Assembly (NCBI GenBank): GCA_033344895.1
Contig: JAWPMN010000001.1
Coordinates: 186,001-250,000 of the forward strand
Reading direction: 5' to 3'
Length of the DNA stretch: 64,000 nt
Origin: Alphaproteobacteria bacterium
Lineage (GTDB): Bacteria > Pseudomonadota > Alphaproteobacteria > UBA8366 > Aestuariispiraceae
Both the position numbers and the translations under genes were made by a program. The first letter of the stretch is position 1. Every line of letters starts with the position of its first letter. The notes under the pieces were generated by a model. The model was not told the DNA's origin. It made no database searches and was given only the letters and a program-made list of their open reading frames with translations. Below, piece by piece: positions 20,326 through 38,736 of the stretch.

Positions 20326-20616
20326 TCAGGCCATGCCCAGCGCGGCCATGTAGGTTTCCAGCAACGCATCCTCTTCGGCGCGGTCGTCCGGATCCTTCTT
20401 CCGCAGTGAAACGATCTTGCGCATCGTCTTGACGTCGAAGCCCTGGCTCTTCGCCTCGGCATAGACTTCCTTGATGTCGTCCGCGATGGTCTTCTTCTCT
20501 TCTTCCAGGCGCTCGACCCGTTCGATGAAGGACCGCAGACGCGCACCGGTTGCGGTTTCGGTGCTGGTTTCCGTTTCGCCCTGCTGGGTATCGGTTTCGG
20601 CGGCGAGATCGGCCAT
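20326..20616 (-). CDS. gapR: GapR-family nucleoid-associated protein (DUF2312)
   Basis: Small (96-residue) alpha-helical protein. The segment [20 protein letters not shown] followed by [18 protein letters not shown] is the DUF2312 signature. In Caulobacter, GapR clamps overtwisted DNA ahead of replication and transcription and is needed for normal growth and division. The N-terminal 20 residues are Thr/Glu-rich and variable. It is transcribed away from hemN, and the 149-base gap between them holds an FNR-type box nearer to hemN. Confidence 0.93.
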
Positions 20617-20717
20617 GGATAAGGACCTTGTCTGTTCGGGTGGGATTGGGGCGGGACTGTACCTCCGCCCCCCTGCCCCTTCAAGACGGCAAGCCGGATA
20701 GACGGACGAAAACGGGA

Positions 20718-20731
20718 TTGATCGGGATCAA
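20718..20731. promoter_or_regulatory. FNR/FixK-type box before hemN
   Basis: Perfect palindrome TTGAT-CGGG-ATCAA, which fits the FNR/FixK/Anr consensus TTGAT-N4-ATCAA exactly. It lies 35 bases before the hemN start codon and 102 bases before the gapR start. FNR-type activation of hemN under low oxygen is well known in proteobacteria, so control of hemN is the likely role. Confidence 0.8.
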
Positions 20732-20765
20732 TGCCCCGCCGCGGGCGCCCTTGCATGATAGGGGC

Positions 20766-21971
20766 ATGAGACAGGATCTGATCAGACGGTACGGCGGGGC
20801 CGCCCCGCGCTATACCAGCTATCCAACGGCACCGCATTTCTCGGACACGGTGGGCCCACCCCAATACCGGGAGCGCCTGTCGCAGCTGCCGGCGGATGAA
20901 CCGGTGTCGCTCTATCTGCATGTCCCGTATTGCGACACGCTGTGCTGGTTCTGCGGTTGCCATACGAAAATGACGCGACGCTACCGACCGGTTTCCAACT
21001 ATGTCGACACGTTGATGCAGGAACTGGTCCTGATTGCCCAGACCGCCCCCAGGAAGCTGCGCATGTCCCATATGCATTGGGGCGGCGGGTCGCCGACCCT
21101 GCTTCAGGCGGACGATATCCTGCGTCTGGCCCGCGCCGCGATTGCGCTGTTCCCGCCCGCCCGGGGTTTCGAATTCGCGGTGGAGATCGATCCAAGAGGA
21201 ACGGGAACCGACCGGATCGCTGCCCTTGCCAGGGCGGGACTGACCCGTGCCAGCATCGGCGTCCAGGATTTCGATCCGACGGTACAGCGCGCGATCAACC
21301 GGATTCAGACATTCGCGGAAACCGCCGACGTCGTTCGGAATCTCAGAGATCACGGGATTCAAAACCTGAATCTGGATCTGATGTACGGCCTGCCGCATCA
21401 GTCCAGGGTGCGAACCTTATCGACCGTGCGACGGGCACTGGAACTGGAGCCCGCGCGCGTTGCCCTGTTCGGATATGCGCATGTGCCCTGGATGAAGACC
21501 CATCAACGGATGATTCCGGAAGAGGCCCTGCCCGGTCCGGCGGAGCGGCTTGAGACATTCGAAGCGGCCGCCGCGCTGCTGACAGAGGCGGGCTATGTCC
21601 GGACCGGCATCGACCATTTTGCCAAGCCGGACGATTCCATGGCGCAAGCCTTCGAACAGGGGAACTTGCGCCGCAATTTTCAGGGTTACACGACCGACCG
21701 TGCGGAAACACTCATCGGCGCCGGGGCCAGCGCCGTCAGTCGGCTTCCAGGCATGTATGCCCAAAACTCCGTACCAATTCAGCGTTATACCGCCATGGTA
21801 CGGGAAGGCGACCTGCCGGTCGAAAAGGGTGTCCGCCTGACCAACGAAGATCGCATGCGCGCCGAAATCATCGAACGCATCATGTGCGACTTTGCGGTCG
21901 ATCTGGGCGCCATCTGCCGTCGACACGGCACAACTATTGAACGCATTTCAGAATCAACCAGACAACTGTAA
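20766..21971 (+). CDS. hemN: Oxygen-independent coproporphyrinogen III oxidase (HemN), C-terminally truncated by an in-frame stop
   Basis: Radical-SAM enzyme that makes protoporphyrinogen IX without oxygen in heme synthesis. The 401-residue frame has the RYTSYPTAPHF N-terminus and the cluster motif YCDTLCWFCGC with Cys56, Cys60, Cys63 and Cys65; HWGGGSPT and NLDLMYGLP also match. HemN is normally about 450 residues. Here a TAA at 21969-21971 ends the frame early, and the same frame continues downstream with 47 codons that look like the missing tail. Whether the shorter protein works is unknown; the C-terminal domain helps close the active site. The last codons are AT-rich, unlike the rest. 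Confidence 0.9.
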   Translation: MRQDLIRRYGGAAPRYTSYPTAPHFSDTVGPPQYRERLSQLPADEPVSLYLHVPYCDTLCWFCGCHTKMTRRYRPVSNYVDTLMQELVLIAQTAPRKLRMSHMHWGGGSPTLLQADDILRLARAAIALFPPARGFEFAVEIDPRGTGTDRIAALARAGLTRASIGVQDFDPTVQRAINRIQTFAETADVVRNLRDHGIQNLNLDLMYGLPHQSRVRTLSTVRRALELEPARVALFGYAHVPWMKTHQRMIPEEALPGPAERLETFEAAAALLTEAGYVRTGIDHFAKPDDSMAQAFEQGNLRRNFQGYTTDRAETLIGAGASAVSRLPGMYAQNSVPIQRYTAMVREGDLPVEKGVRLTNEDRMRAEIIERIMCDFAVDLGAICRRHGTTIERISESTRQL

Positions 21972-22115
21972 GAATTCATGTGCGATAACTTAGTCATATT
22001 GGACGAAAACCGTTTATCCGTACAACCTATCGGAATACCATTCATCCGAAATATTGCATCCTGCTTCGATAAATACTTTGTGATCGGCAAAAAAGTTCAC
22101 TCTCCGGCCATATAA
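21972..22115 (+). pseudogene. hemN: Detached C-terminal tail of hemN beyond an in-frame TAA
   Basis: Reading on in the hemN frame after the stop gives 47 residues and then TAA at 22113. The segment PFIRNIASCFDKYF matches the conserved HemN C-terminus (E. coli has a RNICMCFDTYL stretch). With one residue in place of the stop, the total is 449 residues, the usual HemN length. The stretch is AT-rich with rare codons (TTA, ATA, AGA). A nonsense mutation, a base-calling error, or a recombined and decaying 3' end could explain it. Confidence 0.75.
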
Positions 22116-22118
22116 ATT

Positions 22119-22137
22119 AAACTTCTAGAAAGTTTTT
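22119..22137 (+). terminator. Weak terminator-like hairpin after hemN
   Basis: Arms AAACTT (22119-22124) and AAGTTT (22130-22135) flank CTAGA and lead into a short T-run. It lies just past the full-length hemN frame, which supports the view that the gene originally ended at 22115. Confidence 0.4.
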
Positions 22138-22206
22138 AGGTAAATTATCTCCAGTACGAGGGTGGGACCTTGCACACGCTCCGGCGTCTGGGCCGGGGAC
22201 TGGGGA

Positions 22207-24369
22207 ATGAAAATGTCGATCAAGAGCTTGCCGATAGCGCGCAAGACGGCGCTACTGCTTATCCTTTCGGCACTGGCACTGGGTGGCAGTATTGCGACAG
22301 TCAGCGCCTGGCGAACACACAACCTTTCCTTCGAGCTGATCGAAGAAGAGCTTCACGCCATCGCGGTCGGAAGAGCGGGTGCCCTCACTGCCTATCTGGC
22401 ATCCATCGAGCAGGACCTTCTGATCACCGCCCGAAATGAACAGACCATCGACGCCGTGCAGGCCTTCACTGCCGCCTATCAGGCGCTGGGGAGCAATGCG
22501 GAAGCAGCACTGCAGAAGGCCTATATCACCGACAACCCGCACCCGACAGGGTCCAAGGAACAGCTGGATGTCGCGGATACGGGCACGGAATACGATGCCC
22601 TTCACGCCCGTCATCACCCGTATTTCCGTTTCATGCTTCAGCAGCGCGGATATTACGACATCTTCCTGTTCGATACGGCGGGCAACCTCGTCTATACGGT
22701 GTTCAAGGAACTGGATTACGCGACGAACCTGAACACCGGGGAATGGAAGGGCACCGATCTGGGCAACGCCCTCCGCGCAGCCCTGGCTGGGTCCGGGCCG
22801 GCACCGGTCGCGTTCTTCGACTTCAAACCCTACGCCCCCAGCCACGGCGCACCGGCCAGCTTCATTGCGACAAAGATCAATGATACGGACGGCAAGACAG
22901 TCGGCGTTCTGGTCTTCCAGATGCCCATAGACCGCATCAATGCGGTGATGGACGAGGCCGGGGACATCGGGGAAACCGGCGAGGCTCTCATCATCGGGGA
23001 AGACCACCTGATGCGCAATCAGTCCCGGCTGACCGATGAACCGACAATCCTGCAGGCGTCGCTGGTCTCAGACGCGGTGGACGCCGCCCTTTCCGGTAAG
23101 GAAAGCGCCGGCGTCGAAGCTCATGGCGATATCAGCTATGCCGCTGCCGTGGCTCCAATGCGCTTCCACGATGCCAACTGGGCAATTGTGGCCCGAATCC
23201 AGAAGGATGAGGTCGAAGCCCCGGTGATGAATGGCATTCTGATCATGGTCGCCCTGTCCGTCGGTCTGATCCTTGTCATCGCCGTTGTCGGGATTTTCTT
23301 CGTGCGTGGTCAGATCGTGCGCCCCCTTGTCGGACTTGCCGACACGATGAAGGCCTTGGCCAGCGGCGAACGCCAGATCGAAGTTCCGGGCGCCGATCGC
23401 GGCGACGAAATCGGCGGAATGGCCCGCGCGGTCGATGTCTTCAAGCAGGCGCTGCTTGAAAATGACGATTCACAGGCTCGACAGGCAAGAGAGAACGAAC
23501 TTCGTCAGCGCCGACAGGAAAAAATCGACTCCCTGATCAGCAATTTCACCACCAGCTCGGAAGCTGTGCTGGGGCAGTTGAACCAGGCCTCCGGCGCCAT
23601 GTCTCAAACCGCCGAAGACCTGACCCGCAGTTCGGAAGAGAACATGGGACAGGCATCCAGTGTTGCGTCAGCGGCCGAACGGACTTCGGGCAGCGTTCAG
23701 ACGGTGGCCAGCGCGGCCCAGGAACTGTCCGCCGCCATTGGAGAGATCGGCGTTCAGGTCGAACGTTCCAACGAAGTGACCCGAAACGCGGCGGATGAGG
23801 CCCAGGCCACGACCGCCAAGGTCGAGGCTCTGCGGGAAGCCGCCGAGAGCATTGGCGCGGTAATCACCCTGATCAACGACATTGCGGAACAGACCAACCT
23901 GCTGGCGCTAAATGCGACGATCGAAGCCGCCCGCGCCGGGGAAGCCGGAAAGGGGTTCGCCGTCGTGGCCAGCGAGGTCAAGTCCCTCGCGGCTCAGACC
24001 AGCAAGGCGACGGAACAGATCTCGTCGCAGATCTCGGGCATGCAGGCTGCGACGTCGGATTCGGTGGAGAGCATCGCCCGGTTTACCGAGACAATCCGAA
24101 CCCTGAACGATATCGCCAGCGGGATCGCAAGCTCCGTGACAGAGCAGCAGAGTGCGACGGAAGAGATCGCACGCAATGTCGAGGCGGTCGCAGCCAGCAC
24201 CGATGAGGTCACCGGCAGCATCGGTCTGGTCCGTCAATCGGCCAACGACAACCGTCAAACAGCGGACAAGGTTCGGGATGCCGCGAGCACGCTGTCGAAG
24301 GAGGCGGAGGTACTGAGCCGCGAGGTCAAGACCTTCCTGCAATCCATCGCCGCGGCCGACGAGGCCTGA
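22207..24369 (+). CDS. Methyl-accepting chemotaxis protein with periplasmic Cache-type sensor
   Basis: A 720-residue chemoreceptor. It has a first membrane helix (about residues 12-33), a large periplasmic region (to about 340) with Cache-like motifs such as [20 protein letters not shown], a second helix (about 342-367), a HAMP domain, and a cytoplasmic signalling domain with the invariant hairpin tip ([20 protein letters not shown] and [15 protein letters not shown]). It lacks a terminal CheR-tethering pentapeptide. ATG at 22207 or 22213 both fit a GGGGA upstream. The ligand is unknown; the convergent D-glutamate genes next door are a hint only. Confidence 0.93.
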
Positions 24370-24389
24370 TGCAGTCCCGCTCCGTGGTG

Positions 24390-24409
24390 GCGCTCTACCC
24401 CCAGAGCGC
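24390..24409. terminator. Bidirectional terminator-like hairpin between the chemoreceptor gene and dgcA
   Basis: Perfect 7-base arms GCGCTCT (24390-24396) and AGAGCGC (24403-24409) around a six-base loop. It lies 20 bases after the chemoreceptor stop and overlaps the dgcA stop codon, at a convergent junction. No long T-run is present. Confidence 0.45.
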
Positions 24410-25378
24410 TGCCACGGGCGGCAGCATCGTGGACCCCTCGAACTCGAACGCCGGCTCCCGGTCTTTCGCCAGCAGCAACGGACCGTCCAGATCGACAACC
24501 TTCGCGCCCTGCGCGACCATGAAGGCCGGTGCCATGCCCAGCGACGTCGCCAGCATGCATCCGACCATGATCTCCATCCCGGCCGATTCCGCCGCCTCTT
24601 TCAGGGCCAGTGCCTCGGTCAGGCCGCCGGTCTTGTCGAGCTTGATGTTGATCATCTCGTACTTGCCGACCAGTTTCTCGAATCCGTCCCGCGCATGGGC
24701 GCTTTCATCGGCGCACAGAGGTACCGGATGGGCGAGTTCGACCAACAGACCGTCGTCAGCCGCCGGTAGGGGCTGTTCGATCATTTCGACCCCCAGCGCG
24801 GAGAGCTTTTCGGAGAACGGCTCCACCATCGCGGCGGACCAGCCCTCATTGGCATCGACGATCAGACGCGTATCCGGTGCCGCCTCCCGAACCGCCGCTA
24901 CCCGCTCCAGATCGCCTTCGCCTGTCAGCTTCAGCTTGAACAGCGGCCGCGTCGCGTTGCGTGACGCCGCCGCCGCCATGTTTTCCGGCGTATCCAGGCT
25001 CAACGTATAGGCCGTGACCAGGGAGGTCGGCGCCTGAGGCAGTCCGGCGGCCCGCCAGACGGGCGTACCACTGCGCTTCGCCTCCAGATCCCACATCGCG
25101 CAGTCCAGCGCGTTACGGGCCGCGCCGGCGGGCATCACGGCGTTCAGGGCGGCACGGTCCTGTCCGGCTTCGACACCGGCACGGAACTCCCGAATCTGGG
25201 CCATGACACTGTCGATGCTTTCGCCATAGCGGGCATAGGGAACACATTCCCCACGCCCGACCATGCCGTCCGCCTCCAGTTCCGCCACCACGACCTCGAC
25301 ACTGGTCTTTGACCCGCGCGAGATCGTGAATGTGCCGGCAATCGGAAAGCTGTCGTGACGAACCGTCAGTTTCACCAT
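24395..25378 (-). CDS. dgcA: Enolase-superfamily epimerase, probable N-acetyl-D-glutamate racemase DgcA (or L-Ala-D/L-Glu epimerase)
   Basis: The 327-residue product belongs to the dipeptide-epimerase branch of the enolase superfamily. Catalytic and metal motifs are all seen: KLKLTGE with the KxK acid/base pair, LIVDANEGW, EMIEQPLP, CADESAH and INIKLDKTGG with the second lysine. Members next to a DUF1611 gene have been described as DgcA, which racemises N-acetyl-D-glutamate in D-glutamate use; other members epimerise L-Ala-D-Glu in murein recycling. The gene starts 4 bases after dgcN on the same strand, which favours DgcA. Confidence 0.82.
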   Translation of the reverse strand: MVKLTVRHDSFPIAGTFTISRGSKTSVEVVVAELEADGMVGRGECVPYARYGESIDSVMAQIREFRAGVEAGQDRAALNAVMPAGAARNALDCAMWDLEAKRSGTPVWRAAGLPQAPTSLVTAYTLSLDTPENMAAAASRNATRPLFKLKLTGEGDLERVAAVREAAPDTRLIVDANEGWSAAMVEPFSEKLSALGVEMIEQPLPAADDGLLVELAHPVPLCADESAHARDGFEKLVGKYEMINIKLDKTGGLTEALALKEAAESAGMEIMVGCMLATSLGMAPAFMVAQGAKVVDLDGPLLLAKDREPAFEFEGSTMLPPVAALWG

Positions 25379-25382
25379 GACG

Positions 25383-26378
25383 TCAGAGCGCGTCGACCAG
25401 TCGGCCGGCGCCCTGCCGGAAGGCATCTACCGTAGGCAGCCCCAGTTCCTTCTCAACCTCTTCGAGGTAGGAATCCTGACGGTCCTTCGGCAGCGCGGAG
25501 GTATTGACGGAAACACCGATCACGCGGGCATCCGGATTGACGATCCGGGCCATGCGCTCGTTCAGGTCGATGCATTCCTTCAGGCCCGGCAGCGGGAAGT
25601 CCGGCAGTCCGCGCATATGGGTGCGGGTCGGTTCGTGACACAGGACCATGGCATCGGGCTGGGCGCCATGCAGCAGACCCAGGCTGACGCCAGCAAAGGA
25701 CGCATGGAACAGCGAACCCTGCCCTTCGACGACGTCCCAGTGATCGGCGTCATTCGGCGGGCACAGTTTTTCCGTGGCACCGGAAATGAAATCGGAAATG
25801 ACGGCATCGACCGACACGCCGGAACCGGCGATGAAGATGCCCGTCTGACCCGTGGCGCGGAAATCGGCCTTCATGCCGCGCGCCTTCATTTCCCGCTCGA
25901 TAGCCAGTGAGGTGAACATCTTGCCGGCCGAACAGTCGGTGCCGACCGTCAGCAGACGTTTGCCCGGCCGACGGGACCCTTTTGCGACTTCGAAGTTTTC
26001 GGTCGGATGACGTACATCGAACAGCTTGCGGCCATGTTCGGCGGCAAGGCTGGACAGCGTTTCGATATCCGTAAGACGGTTATGCAGGCCCGACGCGACA
26101 TCGAAGCCCATGACAAGGGCCTGTTCCAGGGTCGAGAGCCAGGATTGCGGAATGATCCCACCCCGGTTCGCGACGCCGACGATGACCGTCTTGCAGCCGG
26201 CGGCCTTGGCCTCTTCCAGCGTCATGTCGGTCAGGCCGAGATCCGCCTTGCAGCCATCGAGGCGCAACTGGCCCTTACACCATTCGGGACGCCACTTGGC
26301 GACACCGTTGGCCACTTTGGCGGCCAGGTCGTCCGCCGCGTCGCCCAGAAACATCAGATACGGATTTTCGATTTGCAT
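25383..26378 (-). CDS. dgcN: DUF1611 protein, probable D-glutamate N-acetyltransferase DgcN
   Basis: A 331-residue cytoplasmic protein of the DUF1611 family. It has an N-terminal Rossmann-like part (TVIVGVANRGGIIPQSW) and a C-terminal P-loop-like domain (TVGTDCSAGKMFTSLAIE; HWDVVEGQGSLFHASFAGVS). DgcN N-acetylates D-glutamate as the first step of a catabolic route described in marine bacteria; DgcA then racemises the product. The start is the ATG at 26378, with GAGGGG about 12 bases upstream. A CGTCAC/GTGACG palindrome in the divergent spacer may be its operator. Confidence 0.82.
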   Translation of the reverse strand: MQIENPYLMFLGDAADDLAAKVANGVAKWRPEWCKGQLRLDGCKADLGLTDMTLEEAKAAGCKTVIVGVANRGGIIPQSWLSTLEQALVMGFDVASGLHNRLTDIETLSSLAAEHGRKLFDVRHPTENFEVAKGSRRPGKRLLTVGTDCSAGKMFTSLAIEREMKARGMKADFRATGQTGIFIAGSGVSVDAVISDFISGATEKLCPPNDADHWDVVEGQGSLFHASFAGVSLGLLHGAQPDAMVLCHEPTRTHMRGLPDFPLPGLKECIDLNERMARIVNPDARVIGVSVNTSALPKDRQDSYLEEVEKELGLPTVDAFRQGAGRLVDAL

Positions 26379-26456
26379 GACCGAGAATTCCCCTCGAACA
26401 AAGTGATTTGCGCGGTTTTGCCCGCGGCGGCGCACTATAAGGTCGTGGAACACGCC

Positions 26457-37905: not shown

Positions 37906-38736
37906 GTGAATTACCGACACGCGTTCCATGCCGGCAATTTCGCCGATGTTCACAAGCATTGGATCCTGTCTCTTCTGCTGCGCCGGCTGGCCGCCAAGGA
38001 CAAACCCTTCTTCGTCCTGGACAGCCATGCCGGTGCGGGGTTCTACGATCTGGCGCGAGAGGAAACAGGCCGGACCGGTGAGGCCGCGAACGGTATCGGG
38101 CGCCTGATCGATCTCGACGAGCCCCCACCGTCCCTTGGGCCCTATCTGGCCGCCATCCGGGGGCTGAACCCGGAGGGCGGACTGCGCTGGTATCCGGGAT
38201 CGCCCTGGTTGATCAGCCATTTCCTGCGCCCGCAGGACCGGCTCGCGGCGGTCGAGGCGCATGAGGAGCAGTCGGCGCTGCTGCGGGCAACATTGCGCGA
38301 TGCGCCCAATGCCCGGGCCTATGCCCGGGACGGATATGACGCCATTCCCTCGTTACTGCCGCCGAAGGAACGGCGCGGACTGACCCTGATCGATCCCCCC
38401 TATGAGGATCGAACGGAAGTGGCGCGCATTGCAAAGGCCGTCGCGGATGGCATGAAACGGTTTGCCACGGGCAGTGTGGCCATCTGGTATCCGATCAAAA
38501 CCCATATGCTGGGTGACGCCCTGGCGGAGGACCTGCCCCCCGCGGAACGCGGCCGTATTCGCTGCGAGATCTGGGTGCGCCCGACCGATCGAGAGGATGC
38601 CGGCCTGACCGGAAGCGGTGTCATCCTGTTGAACCCCGTCTGGCCCGTGCAGGACACGATCGCCGCGGAGCAGCCGGCCCTCGCCGCCCTGCTCGCGAAG
38701 GAGGACGGTGCCGGATCCCGCATTGTCTCCTTCTGA
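37906..38736 (+). CDS. rlmJ: 23S rRNA (adenine(2030)-N6)-methyltransferase RlmJ
   Basis: SAM-dependent enzyme that methylates A2030 of 23S rRNA (E. coli numbering). The 276-residue product starts with the family motif NYRHAFHAGNFADVHKH, so the GTG at 37906 is used. The catalytic motif is LIDPPYEDRTE and the SAM loop lies in VLDSHAGAGFYDL. GSVAIWYPIK is also typical. It begins 10 bases after mrcA. Confidence 0.93.
   Translation: MNYRHAFHAGNFADVHKHWILSLLLRRLAAKDKPFFVLDSHAGAGFYDLAREETGRTGEAANGIGRLIDLDEPPPSLGPYLAAIRGLNPEGGLRWYPGSPWLISHFLRPQDRLAAVEAHEEQSALLRATLRDAPNARAYARDGYDAIPSLLPPKERRGLTLIDPPYEDRTEVARIAKAVADGMKRFATGSVAIWYPIKTHMLGDALAEDLPPAERGRIRCEIWVRPTDREDAGLTGSGVILLNPVWPVQDTIAAEQPALAALLAKEDGAGSRIVSF

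Follow-up and report, generated by a model that had tools for sequence, protein, structure and literature searches.

The hemN locus and its neighbours

The window analysed here is the whole 64 kb stretch of DNA that corresponds to positions 186001-250000 of the G000 genome (G000:C1:186001-250000), the assembly of which consists of a single contig of 4,637,961 bases and is 98.77% complete. To go by the homologues that carry a name, the genome is alphaproteobacterial. The forward strand of this window harbors an apparent gene for the oxygen-independent coproporphyrinogen III dehydrogenase (HemN or CgdH, family TIGR00538) in which, as read from the assembly consensus, the coding frame is interrupted by an in-frame stop codon. 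The features of the locus are as follows.

20718..20731, + strand: putative FNR/Anr-type box TTGATCGGGATCAA, separated from the hemN start by 34 bases
20766-22115, + strand: overall hemN frame (401 codons, TAA, 47 codons, TAA)
20766..21968, + strand: hemN head of 401 codons, radical SAM domain and first half of HemN_C (TIGR00538)
21930..22150, no strand: AT-rich stretch covering the 3' end of hemN and the space before the following gene, shared with G004
21969..21971, + strand: in-frame TAA, codon 402 (frame reading and order-wide comparison)
21972..22112, + strand: orphaned tail of 47 codons, homologue of the HemN C-terminus (TIGR00538 positions 411-447)
21978..22112, + strand: candidate re-initiation frame of 45 codons with its ATG 6 bases 3' of the stop (from the list of open reading frames)
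22113..22115, + strand: original stop TAA, aligned with the end of G004 hemN
22210..24369, + strand: methyl-accepting chemotaxis protein (MCP) gene downstream of hemN, named by eye, start provisional

The first-pass annotation proposed that the TAA at 21969 ends hemN at 401 residues, that the same frame then runs for 47 codons to a second TAA, and that these codons resemble the conserved end of HemN, all of which is borne out by the present analysis. The head alone scores 399.5 bits against TIGR00538 (curated cut-off 324.95), and the CxxxCxxC motif within it is intact, as are further invariant residues of the head: C56, C60, C63 and C65 are unchanged across 38 sequences. On its own, the tail of 47 residues matches positions 411-447 of the 454 positions of the same model (18.7 bits, E 6e-4) and, judged from this match, is homologous to the HemN end and in register with it. 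Composition-matched shuffled or Markov sequences stay open over the length of the tail in 5.6-5.9% of cases, so the open frame alone is mild evidence only, and it is the homology that makes the tail more than a chance open frame.

The gene order around hemN was compared in the other five members of the genus (G001-G005), of which G004 is the sister species and nearest relative of G000, with the neighbouring genes, hemN excepted, named by eye. The genes for ligA, an S8 protease and a DUF2312 protein are grouped with hemN in G001, G003, G004 and G005, the contig of G002 ending before the expected position of ligA, and an L,D-transpeptidase-like gene lies near hemN in four of the five genomes, G001 being the exception. 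Downstream, hemN is followed by the MCP gene, dgcA and dgcN in G000 (window positions 22150-26400) and in G004, and these three genes were not found near hemN in the stretches compared of G001, G002, G003 and G005; in all four, a convergent M16 peptidase gene lies a short distance past hemN. The M16 gene is located at 3.17 Mb in G000 and at 3.36 Mb in G004, and neither an MCP nor an M16 neighbour was found in the short flanks of 11 loci outside the genus. A tblastn search with a very loose cut-off for a leftover original tail beside the M16 gene at 3.17 Mb of G000 produced nothing that stood out among the matches listed (best E ~0.4). The G004 record (G004:C1, CP051228.1; L032) bears the title 'MAG: Mesoflavibacter sp. 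isolate ih5' and thereby the name of a Bacteroidota genus; this title looks wrong because the hemN region of the record is collinear with the alphaproteobacterial window described here.

The box upstream of hemN fits what we take to be the FNR/Anr-type consensus and is the sole exact match in the 64 kb window, where 0.05 matches are expected and at least one match was obtained in 5 of 100 shuffles. Since every one of the six genus members carries an exact box that precedes its hemN by 33-34 bases, the putative low-oxygen control site appears to have been kept. A simple scan of positions 20500-22600 revealed no promoter- or terminator-like sites.

Heme synthesis genes among relatives

All five other members of the genus possess an uninterrupted hemN of 448 or 449 codons, in agreement with the original statement that 449 residues is the normal length of the protein. 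When 43 genomes of the order, including G000 and G004, were searched with the full-length G004 protein as the query (E <= 1e-60), a hemN match was detected in 28, and an internal stop was present only in G000 (1 of 28); the G034 match, cut off by a contig end at residue 376, is uninformative for the stop site. The alignment of homologues comprised 109 rows, with L032 being a repeat of L003. The 108 rows other than G000 all extend across the stop column, 107 of them by 45 residues or more, the exception, L061, running off its contig 16 residues past the column, which leaves 107 rows informative for the tail; the tail is missing in none of these. Relatives that end at the same place, named in advance as evidence against an interruption, are thus not seen (0 of 108 rows end at the stop column). 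No second genome of the same species turned up in the genome and homologue searches.

The stop column itself is occupied by Ala in 35 of the 108 rows, by Glu in 18, by Lys in 16 and by twelve other residues in the remaining 39, and the counterparts of the stop codon within the genus are GAA (G004), AAA (G002), AGC (G001), CGG (G005) and CGC (G003). The first-pass suggestion that Glu is common at this place is therefore correct in that Glu accounts for 18 of 108 rows and is encoded by GAA in G004, but Ala is commoner and the column is variable. Similarly, the proposed change of GAA to TAA is a possible one-step route but merely one such route, AAA in G002 offering another: to go by the codons seen in the genus, one base change from either would suffice for TAA.

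A hemF match was identified in 53 of 59 genomes (G000 included) and in every one of the six genus members, and in G000 the gene is an uninterrupted frame of 292 codons. Judged from gene content, HemF covers the HemN step, in growth with oxygen only. In 15 of the 43 genomes of the order, including 5 of the 21 of best quality, hemN is missing or below the threshold, and at least two of the 15 (G017 and G023) hold a partial match. As suggested by the first-pass annotation, we searched the G000 genome for a second hemN, and no true one was found, the sole other match being HemW (L002), which scores 290.4 bits against TIGR00539 (cut-off 205.4). HemW is a related radical SAM protein in the same genome but is a separate gene with 26% identity that belongs to TIGR00539, and it was rejected as a second hemN. 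With respect to respiration, ccoN is present in G000; nosZ has no match in the genus, narG exceeds the cut-off in G001 only and not in G000, and all napA matches fall below the cut-off.

Composition and divergence of the tail

The 3' end of hemN lies in a stretch of unusual composition: in 100-base windows over 21930-22150 the G+C content is 0.32-0.45, compared to ~0.6 in the surroundings. The G+C content of the tail is 0.38 in G000 and 0.40 in G004, against 0.61 and 0.63, respectively, in the heads, and in both genomes the AT-rich stretch spans the gap to the downstream neighbour; for the remaining four genomes of the genus, the difference between head and tail is 0.03 at most. The tail also has diverged rapidly. 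Between G000 and G004, the heads are 74% identical and the tails 36%, the expectation for the tail from 5356 pairs excluding G000 and G004 being 64% (z -4.2 for the G000-G004 pair), and in each of the 69 pairs with a similar head identity (0.69-0.80) the tails are at least 44.7% identical. Against distant homologues, both tails are unremarkable because their mean residuals over 105 comparisons rank only 13th (G000) and 6th (G004) lowest of 106. The tails closest to that of G004 are those of genus members, and the tails closest to that of G000 come from outside the genus (L092, L098, L078 and L049, at 0.43-0.45), with G004 itself at 0.36. An origin of the tail from a foreign, AT-rich donor is not supported, the top tail identity being 0.45 for G000 and 0.49 for G004. 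Because G004, with its open frame, shows the same AT-richness and fast change, the tail was, on this comparison, already AT-rich, drifting and less constrained before the stop arose. That the rearrangement of the neighbours caused this drift is a guess.

Codon models were fitted to the sequences of six species and must be read with the limits that synonymous sites are saturated and that composition varies along the tree. In the first set, with one-ratio branch lengths scaled from the head, the tail dN/dS was 0.25 in the G000 + G004 clade vs 0.10 elsewhere, and the two-ratio model (lnL -807.85, vs -816.11 for one ratio) gained 8.3 log units. Separation of the G000 tail (0.33) from G004 and the ancestor (0.21) gained only 0.7 log units, and a neutral tail forced on the G000 branch was 6.3 log units worse than the fitted 0.33. 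For the whole head, dN/dS showed no difference in the same set (0.084 vs 0.077-0.079). The last full segment of the head, residues 343-399, gave 0.18 in G000, 0.14 in G004 and 0.10 elsewhere (2 delta lnL 4.3), but two other head segments differ as much or more, with other patterns (5.1 and 6.4).

In a second set, three variants with scaled lengths gave 0.45-0.53 for the G000 tail, with neutrality costing 2.0-3.1 log units; with free lengths, neutrality cost 0.1, 1.3 and 3.5 log units and the fitted values were 1.8, 16 and 0.10. Neutral evolution of the tail thus appears disfavoured, with a strength that varies with the model, and the argument on the age of the stop varies with it. An old pseudogene is disfavoured by the open tail together with one codon model (6.3 log units). 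Probably, then, the stop is not old, or else the tail is still translated.

Effect and interpretation of the stop

By alignment, the stop corresponds to residue 408 of the 457 residues of E. coli HemN (PDB 1OLT). The G000 protein resembles HemN in its radical SAM head with the invariant cysteines, in passing the family cut-off, in the FNR-type box upstream and in the homologous, in-register tail, but differs in that the product would end ~50 residues early, without the second half of HemN_C. In the truncated protein, Pfam Radical_SAM is found at 51-214, and HemN_C matches over positions 1-36 of 67 with 17.1 bits, below the cut-off of 24; the control scores over 66-67 positions are 28.8 for G004, 34.2 for G001 and 38.6 for G005. 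A complete HemN_C and the C-terminus are accordingly lacking from the predicted 401-residue product. Within the orphaned tail, R428 and D435, which are invariant in all 107 informative rows, are both kept, and so are F434 (100 of 107 rows) and S446 (95 of 107); Gly408 (75 of 108 rows) is replaced by Asn, and at position 424 G000 and G004 share an Ile where the majority of rows have Arg or Lys.

As modelled at full length, the G004 protein has, beyond residue 401, the last part of a helix (391-406), two strands (410-413 and 416-419) and a further helix (421-432). With a mean pLDDT of 92.9, the model of the truncated protein is confident in its core. Relative to the full-length model of G004, its mean confidence is lower at residues 11-20 (54 vs 90) and at residues 391-400 (80 vs 93). 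Residues 14-20 are invariant in 38 sequences, and the lost tail might hold this N-terminal arm in place, as suggested by the confidence values of two different proteins. In NocN, a relative of HemN, the active site is reported to lie between the radical SAM and the C-terminal domains (PMC13266988). Because the lost piece holds the invariant Arg and Asp, the 401-residue product is probably inactive, and because the C-terminal domain helps form the active site in the HemN family, it would be inactive or poor.

The interpretation that we favour, with restrained confidence, is that hemN of G000 is a nonsense allele of a gene frequently missing from genomes of the order, and that this allele probably arose recently compared with the divergence from G004. 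Under this scenario, translation would end at codon 401, yielding a protein without the second half of HemN_C and the C-terminus that would have little or no activity, and the cell would withstand the loss by living in the presence of oxygen, or of low oxygen, with HemF and the cbb3 oxidase. The three causes listed in the first-pass annotation, namely a nonsense mutation, a sequencing error and a tolerated truncation, each retain some probability.

It appears unlikely that the truncation is tolerated because the 401-residue HemN still works, the tail having lost its importance first in the common ancestor of G000 and G004. The elevated tail dN/dS in the whole of this clade with the head unchanged, the high mean confidence of the truncated model and the kept promoter box are compatible with such an enzyme, and yet the two invariant residues persist even in the orphaned tail, no other homologue row lacks the tail, half of HemN_C is gone, and truncation lowers the model confidence of the invariant N-terminal segment. 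The unchanged constraint on the head would be shown likewise by a working truncated enzyme, and a recent nonsense event need not leave a mark there.

An error in the consensus sequence, with a sense codon as the real codon 402, seems unlikely as well. A single wrong base would suffice, and the frame of the tail remains open, its neutral evolution being rejected by one codon model, but the genome is a single contig with high completeness, and the error would have to be a substitution rather than an indel. Moreover, when 188 genes of G004 were compared with the first 250 kb of G000, with shadow frames filtered by codon-position G+C, hemN was the only gene with a clear stop deep inside the coding frame, and for this reason the assembly does not look error-rich. 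We inspected 12 flagged positions, that of hemN among them, and for some the likely gene is a longer frame on another strand or in another phase. Other flags lie near predicted starts that, judged as a group from frame statistics, probably are placed too far upstream; one, at 38003, is ambiguous, and one, at 124642, falls in a 282-codon frame, 18 codons short of its end. A further flag is at G000:C1:155739-157807 (L155), where two adjoining frames match one 716-codon G004 frame in different frames, which may reflect a gene fusion or a frameshift in either G000 or G004.

Considerably less probable is a split HemN, in which translation would re-start at the ATG at 21978 and the 45-residue peptide would complete HemN_C in trans; that such a peptide would pack against the invariant N-terminal arm to form a split radical SAM enzyme is equally doubtful. 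The in-frame ATG, with a gap of 6 bases after the stop, and the tail that is not neutral in one codon model fit this possibility. According to one study of translational coupling (PMC10666635), the effect drops sharply as the distance grows and has almost vanished at ~20 bases, a small E. coli group lying near +10, which makes re-initiation possible at a very short distance and unlikely at ~20 bases; the same study gives short overlaps as by far the commonest arrangement, which argues against a split HemN. By eye, there is no good ribosome-binding site before the ATG, and this codon is not special because Met is the commonest residue one codon upstream in the family alignment; neither an RNA family match nor a fold of unusual stability was seen at the stop. 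Read-through of the stop by a suppressor tRNA or a changed code, although compatible with the still recognisable tail, is scarcely credible given that G004 hemN itself ends with TAA and that the search for a TAA-reading tRNA called for at the outset found no UUA anticodon among the 43 tRNAs detected in G000, a list that is incomplete since tRNA-Ile GAU and tRNA-Ala UGC are missing from it.

Returning to the favoured nonsense allele, the G000 gene is comparable to an ordinary bacterial nonsense pseudogene in having one in-frame stop, a recognisable remainder and a second enzyme that can perform the step in the presence of oxygen. It differs in that the tail was apparently AT-rich and less constrained before the stop, as in G004, and that the G000 and G004 tails adjoin the same downstream neighbour. 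In the literature searched, including the accessible portions of PMC13266988, PMC7242693, PMC6974649, PMC8018945 and PMC10666635, we found no report of this allele. On the whole, it looks like an ordinary interrupted gene and a case of gene loss, with nothing new in kind. For annotation, hemN of G000 should be flagged as interrupted, and a hemN match alone gives no ground to assume anaerobic heme synthesis in this organism. The locus also offers a small worked case of a gene end that drifted beside a changed neighbour before a stop appeared and, if it were true that a split or truncated HemN works, would show which part of HemN_C is needed.
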